From the IMG/VR virus record IMGVR_UViG_3300009551_000002, positions 64,001-119,411 of that record: DNA of 55,411 bases; one strand, given 5' to 3'. The DNA is from a virus. Every line of letters starts with the position of its first letter. The stretch's first letter is position 1. The translations under genes and the position numbers were made by a program. Positions 783 through 47,577 of this stretch are shown here, piece by piece. The notes beneath the pieces were generated by a model. It was not told where the DNA came from and searched no databases. It was given only the letters and a program-made list of their open reading frames with translations.

Positions 783-995
783 ATGAACACCGAACGAACA
801 CGAACAACACGAGAACATACTACCATGGAAGGGAAAGATATGGTAATCGCAGAGCGGAAGATCATTTGCGACGGGTGCCTGTTCTGCCAGGAGCACTGCG
901 AATGCGGGCCGCGAGGAACTCCAGCGCCGTGCGATCTGAAGTTCTCCCCGCCCTATGCTCCGTGCGCGAAGTGCCCTAAGCAGCCAGCTTCTTGA
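783..995 (+). CDS. Small Cys-rich protein, probably zinc-binding, 70 aa
   Basis: The C-terminal 45 residues carry nine cysteines in CxxC-like pairs (CDGCLFC, CECG, CAKC), a pattern expected of a small zinc-binding module. ATG 783 has a distant AAAGGA site. An in-frame ATG at 840 follows a stronger GGAAGGG site and would give a 51-residue protein containing every Cys, so the true start may be 840. The 3' end overlaps the end of the convergent padR-like gene by 20 bp. Function unknown. Confidence 0.55.
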   Translation: MNTERTRTTREHTTMEGKDMVIAERKIICDGCLFCQEHCECGPRGTPAPCDLKFSPPYAPCAKCPKQPAS

Positions 996-1389
996 TCGCC
1001 GTCACCGACTTGTCCATGGCCTTCTCGCCCGCCGCAGTCAGCACGTAGAACTTCTTCGCTCGTCCCCCACGAACCGACGTCGATTCGCCCATCTTGGACC
1101 TGATCAGCTTTTTCTCGATCATCCGGGACAGGCTTGTGTAGACGGCTCCGATCTTCGTCTTCACATTGGCATTCTTATGGATGGACTGGACGATGCTGGC
1201 ACCGTAGGCTTTGTCTTTCAGTCGGGACACGGCGAGCAGCACCATAAGTTCCAGGCTGCCCAGATGCAGCCGGGGGGCGCGCTCCGTCGATTTCTTCGCT
1301 TTCGTCGTCTTCGCTGGCTTCGCGGCCTTCGCGGTCTTCGTATTATTTTTGATTAGCGGCATTGTAGTTTTCGAGAGCACGGTTCCCAT
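976..1389 (-). CDS. PadR-family transcriptional regulator
   Basis: 137 residues. After a Lys/Ala/Thr-rich N-terminal tail (about 1-40) comes a PadR-type winged helix: a helix beginning LGSLELMVLL, a YGASIVQSI helix, a recognition segment GAVYTSLSRMIEKKLI, and a wing ending GGRAKKFYVLTAAG. It lacks the long C-terminal dimerisation helices of PadR subfamily 1, so it resembles the short subfamily-2 type. It is the only convincing minus-strand gene in the left part of the window and is divergent from the gene at 1439, so autoregulation of the shared 50-bp spacer is plausible. Ligand and targets are unknown. Confidence 0.85.
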   Translation of the reverse strand: MGTVLSKTTMPLIKNNTKTAKAAKPAKTTKAKKSTERAPRLHLGSLELMVLLAVSRLKDKAYGASIVQSIHKNANVKTKIGAVYTSLSRMIEKKLIRSKMGESTSVRGGRAKKFYVLTAAGEKAMDKSVTAIKKLAA

Positions 1390-2084: not shown

Positions 2085-2255
2085 ATGCTGGTCGTGCCGT
2101 ATTATCTCGAATTAGTAAGTGATGAGCAGTTGCAGCGAGTCGAGAAGGCGTTACGTGAAATGAATGTTTGTTTCTTCACTGACGACAAAATCGAAGGTAT
2201 GGAATTGGCTGAAGTCCAACGTCTCGTAGAAGGCGCGAAATCACTGGATATTTAG
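2085..2255 (+). CDS. Small hypothetical protein, 56 aa
   Basis: A short ORF that fills the gap between its neighbours. ATG 2085 is 12 nt after the previous stop, and its stop (2253-2255) is just upstream of the next gene's AGGAG site. The sequence is amphipathic and helical. The ribosome-binding site is weak. No family recognised. Confidence 0.45.
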   Translation: MLVVPYYLELVSDEQLQRVEKALREMNVCFFTDDKIEGMELAEVQRLVEGAKSLDI

Positions 2256-2264
2256 GAGACGACC

Positions 2265-2450
2265 GTGTATCTACTGCAATTCTTCAAATATGAGCACTTG
2301 CCAGAGCATCTCCAGAACGTGAGTAGACCGTTCGGTGAACTGGCGAAGGAGATCGTGGACACGTTGCCTGACAACCCAGAGCGCACCACTGCTCTCAGGA
2401 AGCTCCTCGAAGCGAAGGATTGTGCGGTGAGGGCGCTCCTCTTCAAATGA
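2265..2450 (+). CDS. Small helical-hairpin protein, candidate Acb2/Tad1-like cyclic-nucleotide sponge
   Basis: 61 residues from GTG 2265, with AGGAG seven bases upstream. The pattern is F-x-Y-x-H-L-P-x-H-L-Q, then a helix (FGELAKEIVDTLP), then P-E-R-T-x-A-L-R-K-L-L-E-A-K-D-C-A-V-R-A: two amphipathic helices joined by a Pro-rich turn. This layout matches the general pattern of short phage proteins grouped with the Acb2/Tad1 hairpin, whose characterised members bind cyclic oligonucleotides and block CBASS or Thoeris defence. Size, two-helix form and conserved charged/aromatic positions are seen directly; the anti-defence role is inference. The stop overlaps the next ATG (ATGA). Confidence 0.5.
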   Translation: MYLLQFFKYEHLPEHLQNVSRPFGELAKEIVDTLPDNPERTTALRKLLEAKDCAVRALLFK

Positions 2451-2710
2451 GCGTCATGGATCTGGTTTTCCGGTCAAATAACACACCGTCTGTAAGTATT
2501 GACGACTGGTGCTCTCAGGAGAGCCACGACGCGAAGTTCAGCAAGATCCCCACACACAAGAACATCGATGGATTCGAGTGCTGCCTAACCTGTTACCACA
2601 ACGGCAACTTCGTCCTCGCTCGTGGATTGGGTGTGTATACCGCCAATGCGTTCCTGGAAGCACTCAAGCAGATAGAAATGACGATCGGAACAGCGTGGAG
2701 AAGTAAATGA
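2447..2710 (+). CDS. Hypothetical protein, 87 aa
   Basis: ATG 2447 overlaps the stop of the preceding gene by 4 nt, implying translational coupling. A mixed alpha/beta small protein with three cysteines (one in a CCLTC cluster at about residues 45-49) and a C-terminal helix (ANAFLEALKQIEM). No recognised family. Its TGA overlaps the next start. Confidence 0.55.
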   Translation: MSVMDLVFRSNNTPSVSIDDWCSQESHDAKFSKIPTHKNIDGFECCLTCYHNGNFVLARGLGVYTANAFLEALKQIEMTIGTAWRSK

Positions 2711-2880: not shown

Positions 2881-3263
2881 AAATCCCCGAGATCGCACTC
2901 ACCATCGAAGATCTCGCGGCCCTAACCACCATCCAGAACAGCGTCACAGAAGGCACCTACTGCGCGATCAAATCTCGCGTCGAGAATCGCCTCATCTTCC
3001 TCGGTCTCGCGATGCACGGCGTCATCCCACCGTGCGCCAAGAAACTGAAGGAATACGAAGACGAGCGCCCGAAGCTGATCGAACGGGCAGAGAAGGCTCT
3101 GAAGAAGCGTGATTGGGTGGAACTCGATAACGTCGCGAGCGATCTCAGACACGATAAGAAACCGGAGTCGCGCAAGGGTCTGATCCTCACCGAAGCCGGG
3201 ACTGCATTGCTCAAGACTGGCCGTGCACAGAGCCGTACTGTCAAAGGGAAGGGCTGCCTGTGA
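2856..3263 (+). CDS. Hypothetical protein, 135 aa
   Basis: ATG 2856 is chosen because TAGGAG lies eight bases upstream. The sequence is largely helical, with a Lys/Glu-rich middle (about residues 65-100) and a basic tail. Its TGA at 3261-3263 overlaps the GTG start of the ThyX-like gene by 4 nt, so it is cotranslated with that enzyme. No motif is recognised. Confidence 0.55.
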   Translation: MAAAAINIKIPEIALTIEDLAALTTIQNSVTEGTYCAIKSRVENRLIFLGLAMHGVIPPCAKKLKEYEDERPKLIERAEKALKKRDWVELDNVASDLRHDKKPESRKGLILTEAGTALLKTGRAQSRTVKGKGCL

Positions 3264-4138
3264 TCGTCGTCGAGCCGAAAGTCTTCTTCCTCGCCGAGCC
3301 GGTACTGAATGAGGGGACCGAGGAAGACCCTGGCGTTACTCAGTGGCTCGAACACATCGGTGGCGACGAGGCTCTAGCGTGCCTCGATCACGTCGAAGGC
3401 GCGGACATCGAACAACTGATCGAATTGCTCGCCCGGCGTTGCTATAAGTCGTATGCGCCCGGCCTGAATCCCAACGTGACGAGAATCCGCACCAACAGTG
3501 ACGAATATCACGCGAATATCCAAAAGAGTCGTCACGGTTCAGTTGTCGCGAACGGCGGTATGGTCACTTACGCGTTCGAGGACGTCAGCAGAGTCTTCAC
3601 GCACGAGATTGTTCGTAATTGGGTAGGAAATGAGCGGTCTCAGGAGTCTCTGCGGTATGTGCGGCTGACGGATATTCGATTTTGGATTCCGCCGATCATA
3701 AAAAAGGACCAGATCCAGAAGCAAATTGAGAACTCGCCTTATCTTCGTGAACGTGGCCTCATAACCGGCGGCTGGAACCCCGAACAGATCATGCAAGAGG
3801 TCGTTCGGACCTGTGAATGGGCGCAGCGTGCTCTCGCCGAATACTACGACATCGATAACATCAAAGATTTCGAGACCAAGAAGAAGCTAACCTCCGCATT
3901 CCGCCGCGTCGCTCCCATCGGACTCGCGACCGGCATCGGCATGAGCTTCAACCTTCGCGCGCTCCGCTGGATCGTCGAGCAGCGCACCAGCCGTCATGCC
4001 GAAGAAGAGATCCGCTTGGTATTCGGCATGGTCGCTGAAGACGCAATGAAGCGCTGGCCGAAGATCTTCCAGGACGTCAAAAAAGTCGATACCGGCGACG
4101 GGCTGTTCGAGTACGTTCCCGAGCACAGCAAGATATGA
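3260..4138 (+). CDS. thyX: ThyX-family (FAD-dependent) thymidylate synthase-like protein
   Basis: 292 residues, within the size range of the family. ThyX enzymes methylate dUMP to dTMP using FAD, NADPH and methylenetetrahydrofolate. Recognisable blocks: RHGSVVANGGMVTYAFED followed by VSRVFTHEIVR (about residues 93-119), the ligand loop ending SQESLRY (127-133), and a C-terminal NLRALRWIVEQRTSRHAEEEIR block typical of the substrate-binding helices. The RHR of the textbook motif RHRxxSxNxxSxRY is R119-N120-W121 here, so FAD or dUMP binding may differ. GTG start overlapping the previous gene; ATGA overlap with the next. Could supply dTMP during infection or have a diverged nucleotide activity. 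Confidence 0.75.
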   Translation: MIVVEPKVFFLAEPVLNEGTEEDPGVTQWLEHIGGDEALACLDHVEGADIEQLIELLARRCYKSYAPGLNPNVTRIRTNSDEYHANIQKSRHGSVVANGGMVTYAFEDVSRVFTHEIVRNWVGNERSQESLRYVRLTDIRFWIPPIIKKDQIQKQIENSPYLRERGLITGGWNPEQIMQEVVRTCEWAQRALAEYYDIDNIKDFETKKKLTSAFRRVAPIGLATGIGMSFNLRALRWIVEQRTSRHAEEEIRLVFGMVAEDAMKRWPKIFQDVKKVDTGDGLFEYVPEHSKI

Positions 4139-4405: not shown

Positions 4406-4780
4406 ATGATGTTCCGTTCCTATCAACGTACCTGTGCTGAATGGGCGAAGAAGTGCTTCGGCCCCGATGTCACCCAGGATCGGGCTCAGCGCAACTATCG
4501 TTTCATGGAAGAAGCGCTCGAACTCGCCCAATCTCATGGCGTCACCAAAGAAGAAGTGCTCAAGCTCGTCGATTACACGTTCAGTCGACCGCCCGGTGAT
4601 CCGTTGCAGGAAGTCGGCGGCGTGATGACGACGATATCGACGATGTGCCACGTCTATGGCTACGACCTAGAGACGTGTGCTCTCGTGGAACTCGAACGCT
4701 GCGAGAAAAATATCGATAAGATCCGTGAGAAGTGGAAAAGTAAGCCGCAAGGTTCACCGTTGTCCGGAGTTAGCGCGTGA
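4406..4780 (+). CDS. MazG-like nucleotide pyrophosphohydrolase family protein
   Basis: 124 residues, all alpha. It contains RFMEEALELAQ (about 32-42) and PGDPLQEVGGVMTTI (about 64-78), which recall the two acidic metal-binding helices of all-alpha NTP pyrophosphatases, and ends with an ELERCEKNIDKIREKW helix. Family members hydrolyse (d)NTPs or alarmones to monophosphates. Position after ThyX suggests nucleotide-pool control. ATG 4406 and ATG 4409 are both possible starts and neither has a clear ribosome-binding site. Overlaps the next gene by 4 nt (GTGA). Confidence 0.65.
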   Translation: MMFRSYQRTCAEWAKKCFGPDVTQDRAQRNYRFMEEALELAQSHGVTKEEVLKLVDYTFSRPPGDPLQEVGGVMTTISTMCHVYGYDLETCALVELERCEKNIDKIREKWKSKPQGSPLSGVSA

Positions 4781-6567
4781 AGAAGATTCCTGATCCTATT
4801 CTCGGCACCACAATCGACGACGACGGCGAATGTATCGTCACTATCGACGTGGATCGTCTCGTCGAGACGCGTCTCGTGCTCACTGCGATCTCCGGTGGCG
4901 GCAAGTCTCACGCGATCCGCCGTATCCTCGAACAGACTCACGGCAAAATCCAACACATCGTCCTCGACCCGGAAGGTGAATTCTACACATTAAGAGAGAA
5001 ATTCCCCTACGTCCTGGCTGGGAAAGGCGGTGACTGTCCGGCTGAACCGCGCTCTGCTGCCCTACTTGCTCAAAAGTTACTCGAACTCCGCGTCTCGGCA
5101 ATCGTGGATCTCTATGAATTACGTCCCGACGAGCGAACGCAGTTCGTAAAGCTCTTCATCGACTCGTTACTCAACGCTCCTAAGTCTCTTCGTCATCCTT
5201 GTTTAGTCGTCGTCGACGAAGCTCACACGTTTGCACCGGAAAAAGGCGAAGGTGAGGCCGTTTCCCGCAATTCCGTGATCGCATTGATGGCGCAAGGGCG
5301 AAAACGCCTGCTTTGCCCCATTCTAGCCACCCAACGTCTCTCCAAACTCGACAAAAACGCGATTTCTGAAGCGCACAATATGATGATCGGGAAATCGATC
5401 CTCGACATCGATGTTGCACGTGCGATGCGCTATCTCGGCTTCCAAAAACAGTCCGAAGAGAAGGTCCGGCGCATGAAACGGGGCCATTTTTGGACATTCG
5501 GTCCTGCTTTTAACGATGAAGTCATCGACGTCATGGTCGGAGCTACGATGACCGAGACTCCCAAGCTCGGCTCGCGCGTGAAAGCTCCTGCTCCACCGTC
5601 AAAGGACATCCAGAAGATCCTCGGCAAGCTCGCCGATCTCCCCGAGGAAGCTCTCAAGCGCGAGCAGACTGAGAAGGATCTCCGCGCCGAGATCGCAGAG
5701 TTGAAGAAATCGCTACGAGAAGTACCGCGTATCAGTCACGCGCAGCCGCTCCCTGTCGAGAAGACCGTCACGAAGCTCATCGAAAAGTGGGCGATCAGTG
5801 CCCAACAGATGAAAGCGCTCGAAAGATACTCGAATCGCTTCGAGAAATTCATGGCGTCGTTCCACAAAATATCCGAACCATTGGTTTCTACCGGTAAAGA
5901 TGTGCGCGATAGCATCCAGGCTTCGATGAAGTTGATTACGGCGAAGGCTCCAGCGGTCGATGCGACGCCTACCGCGCTTATACGCGATACTCTCAAACGT
6001 GATCAATCCGTGCGAGAGACAAATAAGCGCGTCCAGACGGCGGCCTTTGAGAAAGAAAAGGCAGCCGTCGTCAATAACGGCAAGCTCGGCCCGTGCGAGC
6101 GCAAAATCCTCAGCGTTCTCGCCCAATATGCCGACGAGGGCTGCGACAAGGGGAAGCTGGCTCTCCTTTCTGGTTACCGCTACAGCGGTGGTTTCCGAAA
6201 TTCTCTTTCTAGGCTTCGCACCAATGGCCTCATGACCGGCGATAACGATAAAACGATGACGATCACTGAGATTGGCAAAGAAGCTGCTGGTCCTCTACAA
6301 CCTTTGCCTACCGGCGAGGAACTTTTTGCTTACTGGCGCGATCAGTCTGTGCTCGGTCCTTGTGAACGGGCAATCATGGATGTTCTCCGTACTCGGCCCG
6401 GCCTTACTGGCCCTGAGATCGCTCCTTATACAGTCGACTCTTCGGGAAATCCCTACGAATATAGTGGAGGGTTCCGGAACGCTCTCTCTAGGCTCCGCGT
6501 CGCTGGTGTGATTACCGGCACATCGAATACTGCTCCTATCAGGCTAAACGACAATTTGTTGAAATAG
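4777..6567 (+). CDS. HerA/FtsK-like ATPase with C-terminal tandem winged-helix-like repeats
   Basis: 596 residues, GTG start. Walker A is SGGGKS (39-44) and Walker B LVVVDEAH (143-150); an ILATQRLSKL motif near 188 resembles the sensor region of HerA/DUF87 translocases. Residues about 300-370 are coiled coil. The C-terminal third holds two copies of a module beginning LGPCER and containing YSGGFRNSLSRLR or YSGGFRNALSRLR (about 445 and 525), probably DNA-binding winged helices. Such ATPases pump or remodel DNA as hexamers, often with a nuclease; no NurA-like partner is adjacent. Last gene of the early block. Confidence 0.75.
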   Translation: MKKIPDPILGTTIDDDGECIVTIDVDRLVETRLVLTAISGGGKSHAIRRILEQTHGKIQHIVLDPEGEFYTLREKFPYVLAGKGGDCPAEPRSAALLAQKLLELRVSAIVDLYELRPDERTQFVKLFIDSLLNAPKSLRHPCLVVVDEAHTFAPEKGEGEAVSRNSVIALMAQGRKRLLCPILATQRLSKLDKNAISEAHNMMIGKSILDIDVARAMRYLGFQKQSEEKVRRMKRGHFWTFGPAFNDEVIDVMVGATMTETPKLGSRVKAPAPPSKDIQKILGKLADLPEEALKREQTEKDLRAEIAELKKSLREVPRISHAQPLPVEKTVTKLIEKWAISAQQMKALERYSNRFEKFMASFHKISEPLVSTGKDVRDSIQASMKLITAKAPAVDATPTALIRDTLKRDQSVRETNKRVQTAAFEKEKAAVVNNGKLGPCERKILSVLAQYADEGCDKGKLALLSGYRYSGGFRNSLSRLRTNGLMTGDNDKTMTITEIGKEAAGPLQPLPTGEELFAYWRDQSVLGPCERAIMDVLRTRPGLTGPEIAPYTVDSSGNPYEYSGGFRNALSRLRVAGVITGTSNTAPIRLNDNLLK

Positions 6568-6598: not shown

Positions 6599-7222
6599 AT
6601 GTCAGACGCTGCCGCCATAACCCTGCCCAAACTCCCCGGCATTGACGTCAGTAGCTACCAGGGCCACATCGACTGGAAGGCATTAGGACCTCACATCCGG
6701 TTCGCATTCATTAAGGCCACAGACGGCCCGCGCATCATCGATTCGCGCGTCCTGGAGAATATTAAAGGCGCAACCGACAACGGTGTCCCGTTCGGCCTCT
6801 ATCATTTCTACCGAAATGGCGGCAAAGAAGAGGCCGACCACTTCCTGGAAATCTTCAATAAGTACTCTTCGCAATTGCCGCCCGTGCTCGACCTGGAGAC
6901 GCATCCGACCTCGGATATTCTGCCGTCATTCGCGCCCGGCGCGCTCACTTTTCTCGAAGCCGTAAGTTCTCACGCGCGCCCGATGGTGTACACGTCACCG
7001 TCCTTCGCTTCGACGTATCTCAATCCTGACTTCTCCGAATATCCTCTATGGATCGCGCATTACACGCGCGCTGAGCGCCCGAATACCACGACCTTATGGA
7101 GCAGTTGGGATTTCTGGCAATGGTCGAGTGCCGGGAAATTACCCGGTATTGACGACCCTGTTGATCTCGATTGGTGTTTGGACGAACCGACGCTCGACGC
7201 CGTCATGCGCATACCGACATGA
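6599..7222 (+). CDS. GH25 lysozyme (endolysin)
   Basis: 207 residues forming one GH25 TIM barrel with no extra wall-binding domain. GH25 enzymes cut the MurNAc-beta-1,4-GlcNAc bond of peptidoglycan. Hallmarks: GIDVSSYQG (14-22, Asp16), PPVLDLET (catalytic Asp98 and Glu100), and a late WSSWDFWQWSS strand. No signal peptide, so release would need a holin; membrane proteins follow at 7317 and 7643. The start at 6599 has no visible Shine-Dalgarno. Confidence 0.92.
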   Translation: MSDAAAITLPKLPGIDVSSYQGHIDWKALGPHIRFAFIKATDGPRIIDSRVLENIKGATDNGVPFGLYHFYRNGGKEEADHFLEIFNKYSSQLPPVLDLETHPTSDILPSFAPGALTFLEAVSSHARPMVYTSPSFASTYLNPDFSEYPLWIAHYTRAERPNTTTLWSSWDFWQWSSAGKLPGIDDPVDLDWCLDEPTLDAVMRIPT

Positions 7223-45592: not shown

Positions 45593-47577
45593 ATAAATTC
45601 ATTTCTACTACAATTCTTTTAATAGTGATGCTTTTTGTCAGTGTCACTGTGCAGGCGCAGACGTCGCCGTTTCCTCCGTCCGGTGGTGGTGCCGGAGCAG
45701 GCGCGATCGCTTGCTCAGGCACCCCTGGCAATACGACTGGCTCTTACCGGCAACAGTGTCAGACAGGCACCGGCGCTGTGTTCGCCTGCAACAATGCCAG
45801 TGGATGTACCGTAGCAGCGGATTGGGTTGCGGCGGTCGCTGGGACCGTGCGCGCCGGTCTGATCAGTGGCTTACCTGCTACCTGCAATGTCGGTGACGTC
45901 TACTTCGCGACCGATGCAGCGGCGGGCGCGAACATTTATCAATGTACGGCGACGGACATCTGGTCTCCTCCGGTCAGCGGCAGCGGTTCCACGAGCTACA
46001 GTCAGTCCTTTACTTCGCAGACCAGTGTCACCTTGACGCATAATCTAGGCACTGTCGCGGTAGAGGTCCAATGCTTCGATAGCGGCTCTCCTCCGCAGAA
46101 GATCGAAACGAACACTGAGCAGGCGTCGACGACCAATAGCTATACGGTCACCTTCTCGGTTGCTCAGAGTGGAAGCTGTGTGGTGCTTTCCGGTAGCGGT
46201 GGAGTCGGTCCAACCGGTCCAGCCGGTGCTCCTGGCGGCACCCCGCCCGGTGCCTTGTACAACACGCCTCTGACTGGGCTAGGGCTCGAATACGTCTCAG
46301 GCTTGACGTACACAGTAGGCGCAGGAACCTATCTGATCGGAGGAACACAGTATGCGAGCGCACAGACTCCCATCACGTTGGCGACTGCTGACCCTACCAA
46401 TCCTCGCATTGACGTCATCTACGTCGACAACAATAGCTCCGTGCAGGTGCTCACCGGGACACCTGCTGCAACGCCGTCTCAACCGTCAGTCGACTACTCA
46501 ACAGAATTGCCGTTGAACGTCGCACTAATTCCTGCTGGTGGAAGTGCTCCGACTGGAGTCTCCACCACACTGATCTATGACGAGAACGTAGAGTGGACTT
46601 GTTCTTCGACGACCCACATCAATTGCGCTTCGACGAACAATCCATATCACGGGACCAAAGACATTGAAGCGACAGCGGCAGTTCTAGGCAACAGCTTCAC
46701 GTTGGTTAAGCCTGCCAGCGGTACGACCGATCTCTCGACTCTCAACTCACTCGTTTGCTATATCGACCCTAAAGCAAAGTGGCCTAGCGGCAGCGGCACT
46801 GGGTCGAGCGCTCTGCGCACACTCTCTTTGTTCTGGTTGAACGGAGCAACACAAGTCGGACTCCAGGTCGTCATCCGCGATGGCGCATTCAATTTCAACT
46901 CAGCTACTCCGAGTTATCAGCAGATCAGTATCCCGCTAGGGCCGACAGGTCCTTTCGGTACTGGATCGAATCTCGTTACTTCCCTCAAAGGACAGATCAC
47001 CGGCAACGGTGGAACCTCCAGCATTGGGTTCTATGTCGATCAGTGTAGCCTACAGGGCGGCACTGGAGCCGTCACCCTGCCTATCACCTCGATGAACTTC
47101 AAGGGGAATTGGGCGAGCACGGCCAGCTATAACACTAACGACGTAGTGATTAGCAGTAACTGCGGCTATGTGGCGTTGACGAACAACACCAATGTGAATC
47201 CAAGCAATACTTCTACATGGCAGAACCTCTGCTCTGGAGTTGTGCCTATCACGACCGGCACGACTTCGATCACGCTCTCAGGGCCAACAGCCATTGGTAT
47301 CTGCCCTGGCGGCGGGGCATGCAATGTCGCGGTTCCGGTTCCTGTTAAGGGTGCCATGTACTGTGCCTGGAATGACGACAACGTGTCGACGACGATCACA
47401 TTCACGGCGCTAGGCTCGTCCGCACGCTATGAGAATCAGGCAAGGACAGCTTATGGGACGGCAGGTACAGGGACGCTTAGCTCAGCCGGAGCCGTGGGCG
47501 ACAAAGCCTGCATTGTAGGCATCGACAGTACGCACTATCAAACGATCAACGCTAGTGGGACTTGGACGGCCAGCTAA
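45589..47577 (+). CDS. Fibre-like protein with Sec signal peptide, 662 aa
   Basis: Residues 1-24 form a signal peptide (MNKF, hydrophobic core, VQA|Q). The rest is Gly/Thr/Ser-rich with a short collagen-like stretch (GPTGPAGAPG near 210) and beta segments ending in SARYENQART, as in tail fibres and their knobs. Several cysteines suggest disulfides outside the cytoplasm. A signal peptide is not expected for a virion fibre. Confidence 0.6.
   Translation: MNKFISTTILLIVMLFVSVTVQAQTSPFPPSGGGAGAGAIACSGTPGNTTGSYRQQCQTGTGAVFACNNASGCTVAADWVAAVAGTVRAGLISGLPATCNVGDVYFATDAAAGANIYQCTATDIWSPPVSGSGSTSYSQSFTSQTSVTLTHNLGTVAVEVQCFDSGSPPQKIETNTEQASTTNSYTVTFSVAQSGSCVVLSGSGGVGPTGPAGAPGGTPPGALYNTPLTGLGLEYVSGLTYTVGAGTYLIGGTQYASAQTPITLATADPTNPRIDVIYVDNNSSVQVLTGTPAATPSQPSVDYSTELPLNVALIPAGGSAPTGVSTTLIYDENVEWTCSSTTHINCASTNNPYHGTKDIEATAAVLGNSFTLVKPASGTTDLSTLNSLVCYIDPKAKWPSGSGTGSSALRTLSLFWLNGATQVGLQVVIRDGAFNFNSATPSYQQISIPLGPTGPFGTGSNLVTSLKGQITGNGGTSSIGFYVDQCSLQGGTGAVTLPITSMNFKGNWASTASYNTNDVVISSNCGYVALTNNTNVNPSNTSTWQNLCSGVVPITTGTTSITLSGPTAIGICPGGGACNVAVPVPVKGAMYCAWNDDNVSTTITFTALGSSARYENQARTAYGTAGTGTLSSAGAVGDKACIVGIDSTHYQTINASGTWTAS

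Follow-up and report, generated by a model that had tools for sequence, protein, structure and literature searches.

A short phage protein very probably from a divergent Acb2/Tad1 hairpin branch, and a probable nucleotide-signal sponge

The gene at positions 2265-2450 of a viral DNA stretch of 55,411 nucleotides (hereafter the window; it spans 64001-119411 in a viral record of 119,411 bp) encodes a protein of 61 residues that is best read as a divergent branch of the Acb2/Tad1 superfamily, acting as an oligomeric sponge for a nucleotide signal with altered specificity. A probability of 0.63 is given to this reading, or about 0.6 to 0.65 for the sponge function as such. Membership of the protein in the hairpin superfamily stands more firmly and is very probable, and the protein is neither Acb2 proper nor Tad1 proper. 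Together with its relatives (the hairpin family), it forms a widespread, unannotated branch, whose assignment to the superfamily is new to annotation. The features of the gene and its immediate surroundings are as follows.

2085..2255, + strand: upstream ORF of 56 aa, given as context; phrog_14594 at E 0.047
2254..2258, + strand: Shine-Dalgarno sequence AGGAG, 6 nt 5' of the GTG start, by direct reading
2265..2450, + strand: hairpin-protein gene, from the ORF, its relatives and the phrog_1454 match
2268..2285, + strand: predicted N-terminal helix, residues 2-7 (YLLQFF), from the AF2 model
2304..2363, + strand: predicted helix 2, residues 14-33, from the AF2 model and alignment
2364..2375, + strand: predicted turn L34-P-D-N37 joining the long helices, from the AF2 model and alignment
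2376..2441, + strand: predicted helix 3, residues 38-59, from the AF2 model and alignment
2447..2710, + strand: downstream ORF of 87 aa, overlapping the hairpin-gene stop codon by ATGA

The ORF opens with a GTG start codon and runs for 61 codons, and its translation on the plus strand, VYLLQFFKYEHLPEHLQNVSRPFGELAKEIVDTLPDNPERTTALRKLLEAKDCAVRALLFK, agrees in length and motifs with what a sequence-only reading of the same DNA had quoted. Its 3' end and the start of the following ORF overlap by 4 bp (ATGA). As relatives occur in phage, IMG/VR and bacterial contigs, the ORF is not a product of chance and is a real gene. The upstream ORF has no Pfam match, and the downstream ORF matches neither Pfam nor PHROG. 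A second IMG/VR contig, L001, comes from an almost identical phage (99.97% over 7 kb) and gives no independent evidence. The sequence-only reading had further placed the gene in a block of small genes at the left end, a setting taken to suit counter-defence. This impression is an artefact of the window edge: in the contig the gene is found at position 66265 and is preceded by further ORFs, and because it is thus interior to the 119,411-bp record, that argument for counter-defence was wrong.

The AF2 model built from a 68-member alignment (pLDDT 97) predicts helices at residues 2-7, 14-33 and 38-59, with one short helix at the N-terminus preceding two long antiparallel ones. The two helices and Pro turn described earlier are therefore reproduced, but the short third helix at the N-terminus had escaped notice. 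F7 and, just past this helix, H11 are invariant (alignment A1), as are L16, S20, F23 and A27 of helix 2, while the Pro and Asn of the turn are almost so. Helix 3 carries the near-invariant LRKLLEAKDCAVRA (nt 2394-2435), in which R45, E49, D52 and R56 form one stripe; residues L44 to A57 are nearly invariant, and all faces of the helix are conserved. These conservation values are biased upwards, as the loci were chosen by conserved peptides, and a fairer guide is the phage tblastn set, with approximately 40 to 75% identity among clear matches. Conservation of every face of helix 3 is unexpected for a lone two-helix protein and would be explained by an oligomer with a ligand, or by a protein partner.

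The family is widely distributed. A tblastn match was obtained in 391 of 50,697 phage records at an E limit of 10, the weakest of which are doubtful, and 355 of these cover at least 80% of the query. A further 25 plasmid records match, at least 185 IMG/VR loci were confirmed, and 195 matching stretches were found in bacterial genome contigs, where the titles listed include Pseudomonadota, Actinomycetota, Bacteroidota, Verrucomicrobiota, Acidobacteria, Chloroflexia, Planctomycetes and Bdellovibrionaceae. Members are almost always annotated as 'hypothetical protein'; a member in an Acinetobacter phage is labelled 'occludin homology domain protein', and one in an Ochrobactrum phage, with a Cys-rich N-terminal part fused to the hairpin domain, 'anti-TRAP domain-containing protein'. 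Fusion behind a CxxC zinc-ribbon-like N-terminus was observed in gp62 of Ochrobactrum phage OH (L169:765-1133) and in gp69 of Mycobacterium phage Zemanar (L165:233-577). The window protein's own PHROG families are 1761 (3.9e-31) and 5120 (2.1e-23), both without an assigned function in PHROG, and members of phrog_1761 bear an extra N-terminal part that the window protein lacks (match at 83-138 of 148). Single-protein searches of Pfam, NCBIfam, PADLOC and PDB sequences returned no real match.

Among 81 loci, no conserved neighbours of the hairpin gene were found, the largest shared cluster being present in 8 (with the gene itself and overlapping ORFs excluded), and no recognised counter-defence genes occur among the neighbours. 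Vibrio and Acinetobacter phages carry it among their capsid genes, between portal/head genes and capsid genes; other settings include early small-gene blocks, jumbo phages and positions beside terminase. In the window, a ThyX thymidylate synthase is encoded close to the hairpin gene (3260-4138; PF02511, E 2.9e-26). In LadyBird and Anon, PF24729 hairpin genes directly adjoin ThyX, and in a Roseovarius phage a window-family relative lies near it. ThyX was rejected as a general partner, since no more than 4 of the 45 genomes carrying the hairpin family have it. Three further window genes were tentatively identified by eye: a putative HerA/FtsK-like ATPase of 596 aa (4777-6567), with relatives in the vicinity of the hairpin gene at 4 of the 81 loci, the window among them; a gene whose sequence suggests a PadR-type transcription regulator (LGSLELMVLLAVSRL...GGRAKKFYVLTAAGEKAM; 976-1389, minus strand), opposite to the surrounding genes; and an apparent GH25-type lysozyme (GIDVSSYQGHIDW; 6599-7222), a possible endolysin beside the small-gene block.

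The settings among capsid genes bear on the alternative that survives best, in which the same superfamily and fold are retained, and the oligomer has come to bind some protein of the host or the phage, for instance as a takeover or head-assembly adaptor, with no nucleotide signal bound. The near-invariance of every helix 3 face fits a protein interface, and the zinc-ribbon-like fusions also speak for such a role. The remaining contexts are, however, unrelated to one another, and a conserved small-molecule ligand is a simpler reason than a conserved protein partner for conservation over phages from many phyla, so that a protein partner is regarded as unlikely, if still to be reckoned with.

Placement of the family beside the Acb2/Tad1 hairpin proteins (PF24729) was tested by profile comparisons. 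Accepted PF24729 proteins were gathered, comprising T4 Vs.4, relatives of Acb2, and an F-x-F/Y-H type encoded by phages of Paenibacillus and of actinobacteria; where tested, these proteins matched Pfam at E 3e-12 to 2e-27, and 51 proteins of the F-x-F/Y-H type make up set A2. The bridging profile phrog_1454, which is independent and includes accepted hairpin proteins, matches all 51 members of set A2 (best 1e-35), T4 Vs.4 (7e-4) and 68 of 68 hairpin-family members (best 7.4e-6). Across the window's contig its only match is the hairpin gene (6.6e-5; contig 66301-66435, window 2301-2435), and in genome scans at E 0.001 it found a match in 35 of 37 family-carrying viral genomes, as against none of 14 controls. 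In the reverse direction, phrog_1761 matches 19 of the 51 set A2 proteins (best 1.1e-5). Alignment of the hairpin family to the PF24729 set by hhalign gave P values of 1.9e-5 to 7.8e-5 for gap-free stretches of 36 to 46 columns, with a score of 30.1 against a maximum of 18.0 over 150 column shuffles, none of which reached it. Since the yardstick comparison of set A2 with Acb2 proper gave 9.6e-5, the hairpin family is at least as close to PF24729 proteins as they are to each other. By sequence, set A2 itself reaches 'Acb2 homolog 43' (9ptq) at 2.3e-10 and Tad1 at 6e-4.

More direct matches are fainter. The hairpin-family profile reached 9ptq in the PDB at an E of 1.1 only, aligning residues 17-55 to 19-57 in matching register, and 4 of 68 relatives reached PF24729 (best E 0.0044); both were treated as leads only. 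The window protein matched no Pfam family, PF24729 included, at E up to 10 and stays below the curated PF24729 cut-off of 27 bits, and is for this reason filed as a sister branch and not as a PF24729 member. Direct hhalign of the hairpin family with Acb2 proper was not significant, 20 of 150 shuffles being equal or better.

A rival view holds that the likeness to Acb2 and Tad1 is a generic resemblance between helical hairpins of unrelated function. Short helical proteins do yield many weak matches (Arch_DPS, the occludin domain, designed bundles), and a PF24729 match above the cut-off is absent. This view is nonetheless improbable, given that the profile matches are reciprocal and separate family carriers from controls, that no shuffle equals the hhalign score, and that the ungapped register has an invariant Glu in common, located beyond the turn. 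Identity as a DNA-protecting fragment of a ferritin-like or DPS protein is hardly credible, as the NCBIfam DPS matches, weak in 57 of 68 relatives (best 7e-4), amount to about 14 bits against cut-offs of 250 and 158, span just two of the four helices in such a bundle, are weaker than those of phrog_1454 and showed no reciprocal match; both the DPS and occludin identities were rejected as weak matches below cut-offs.

Structure searches with the single-chain model extend the comparison. Among viral models, Foldseek listed Acb2/Tad1 hairpin proteins as most of the named neighbours after the protein's own family (ranks 7, 8, 11-13, 15, 17, 19-21, 24, 25 and 31), the first two at a probability of 1.00. 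The reverse search from a PF24729 model returned A0A6G6XYP8, A0A023NHU2 and A0A384ZW89, which are three of the window model's top six. The AF2 helices of a PF24729 protein (3-9, 19-39 and 44-66) compare with the three of the window protein given above. The PF24729 model aligns to the crystal structures of Vs.4 (Z 6.4) and Acb2 (Z 6.1), although a Z of about 6 lies within chance for helical hairpins. Against solved structures, the window model retrieved nothing at E 0.001 or better with Foldseek, and Foldseek and VIA listed generic helical bundles only, with Acb2, Vs.4 and Tad1 absent from the list. The resemblance to Acb2 and Tad1 proposed by the sequence-only reading is thereby upheld at the level of the superfamily, by sequence-profile (phrog_1454), profile-profile (hhalign with the PF24729 set) and structure (viral models) tests, but does not extend to Acb2 or Tad1 proper: the protein scores below the PF24729 gathering threshold, lacks the Arg that is invariant among its PF24729 neighbours, and shows no significant direct profile similarity to Acb2 proper. 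Lacking significant Acb2 similarity, the Tad1 beta domain and any such listing, it is placed as a sister branch and not as Acb2 or Tad1.

The closest named counterparts belong to the F-x-F/Y-H type of PF24729, exemplified by VEGAS_80 of Paenibacillus phage Vegas, gp46 of Gordonia phage Anon, gp53 of Mycobacterium phage LadyBird and gp101 of the cluster E phage CrystalP, with 9ptq as a solved relative. A PF24729 protein of Paenibacillus phage Vegas (L182:275-478) is labelled 'phosphomannomutase', an evident misannotation that recurs in other Paenibacillus phages. The window protein shares with this type its length, three-helix layout, F...H near the N-terminus, LP-turn, initial invariant Glu of helix 3 (E39, equivalent to E45 of set A2) and A-L-x-x-L-x-E-A register, and alignment with the PF24729 set shows that its small residues and leucine register are retained. 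Among the differences, the motif REKS...T.LEEA.FWANAAIAR becomes PERT.ALRKLLEAKDCAVRALL in the window family, and the C-terminal WANAAIAR of set A2 becomes CAVRALLF in the window protein. R44, which is invariant in set A2 and aligned to an Arg of Acb2, is replaced by P38; an Arg at the start of helix 3 was not found in the hairpin family, this position being P in 61, A in 6 and S in 1 of 68 relatives. The aligned Arg of Acb2, R67, presumably takes part in ligand binding, as do Y11 and K26.

Acb2 (Pseudomonas phage p26; PDB 8h2j/8h2x/8ixz) and T4 Vs.4 (7uq2), both of which match PF24729, share the helix topology of the window protein, and helix 3 of Vs.4 (IAKTKLKEASMWACRAVF) resembles TALRKLLEAKDCAVRALL of the window protein. 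The latter lacks the Acb2 N-terminal motif KGYRDLSQEEID and is 25 to 30 residues shorter than either. Tad1 (PDB 7uav, 8kbe) possesses a C-terminal two-helix part related to the PF24729 set, the window family's nearest neighbour, and an N-terminal beta domain (PMC12043709) that is absent from the all-helical window protein. Acb2 is a homo-hexamer, each protomer being comprised of one short and two long helices, with cyclic dinucleotide pockets between protomers and additional trinucleotide sites, while Tad1 also takes up gcADPR (PMC10419184, PMC12043709). In two cluster E mycobacteriophages, genes 101 and 102 are already annotated as cyclic nucleotide sequestering proteins, with their role there stated to be unknown (PMC11953737), and gp61 of Curtobacterium phage Yotsuba, a PF24729 protein, carries the same label. 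One contig, that of L040, encodes both a hairpin-family member and a PF24729 protein above the cut-off (G011: 447-614, 46004-46138); the two are therefore not mutually exclusive, and their co-occurrence suggests non-redundant roles.

A sponge with a changed pocket is the simplest reading of these data, and the window protein is probably a counter-defence protein, likely with a different specificity. Solved members of the superfamily sequester signalling molecules that bacteria deploy against viruses, and the sequence-only reading had named cGAMP, cA3 or gcADPR as ligands of Acb2 and Tad1. The window protein's protomer is modelled with a short helix at its N-terminus ahead of two antiparallel ones and, by analogy with Acb2 and Tad1, would form a homo-oligomer of few subunits, probably six. 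Pockets between the protomers may bind a nucleotide-derived immune messenger without degrading it, candidates being a cyclic di- or trinucleotide or a relative of cyclic ADP-ribose, and through this capture the effectors of CBASS, Thoeris or type III CRISPR would stay switched off while infection proceeds. The preferred ligand is probably unlike the known ones, because the Arg that is invariant in the neighbouring PF24729 set is replaced by Pro and a new invariant stripe has appeared. It is conceivable, though tentative, that a widespread and unrecognised sponge clade, marked by the stripe R45, E49, K51, D52 and R56 and distributed over phages, prophages and plasmids from many bacterial phyla, captures a messenger that neither Acb2 nor Tad1 binds.

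If the sponge reading is true, hundreds of 'hypothetical' phage genes, some mislabelled as occludin or anti-TRAP proteins, would become a testable class of counter-defence genes. The short protein would be easy to express, to crystallise and to use as bait for an immune signal. The spread of the family over phages of both Gram-negative and Gram-positive hosts, together with its strict conservation, suggests that it answers to a common, and possibly unknown, bacterial immune signal.
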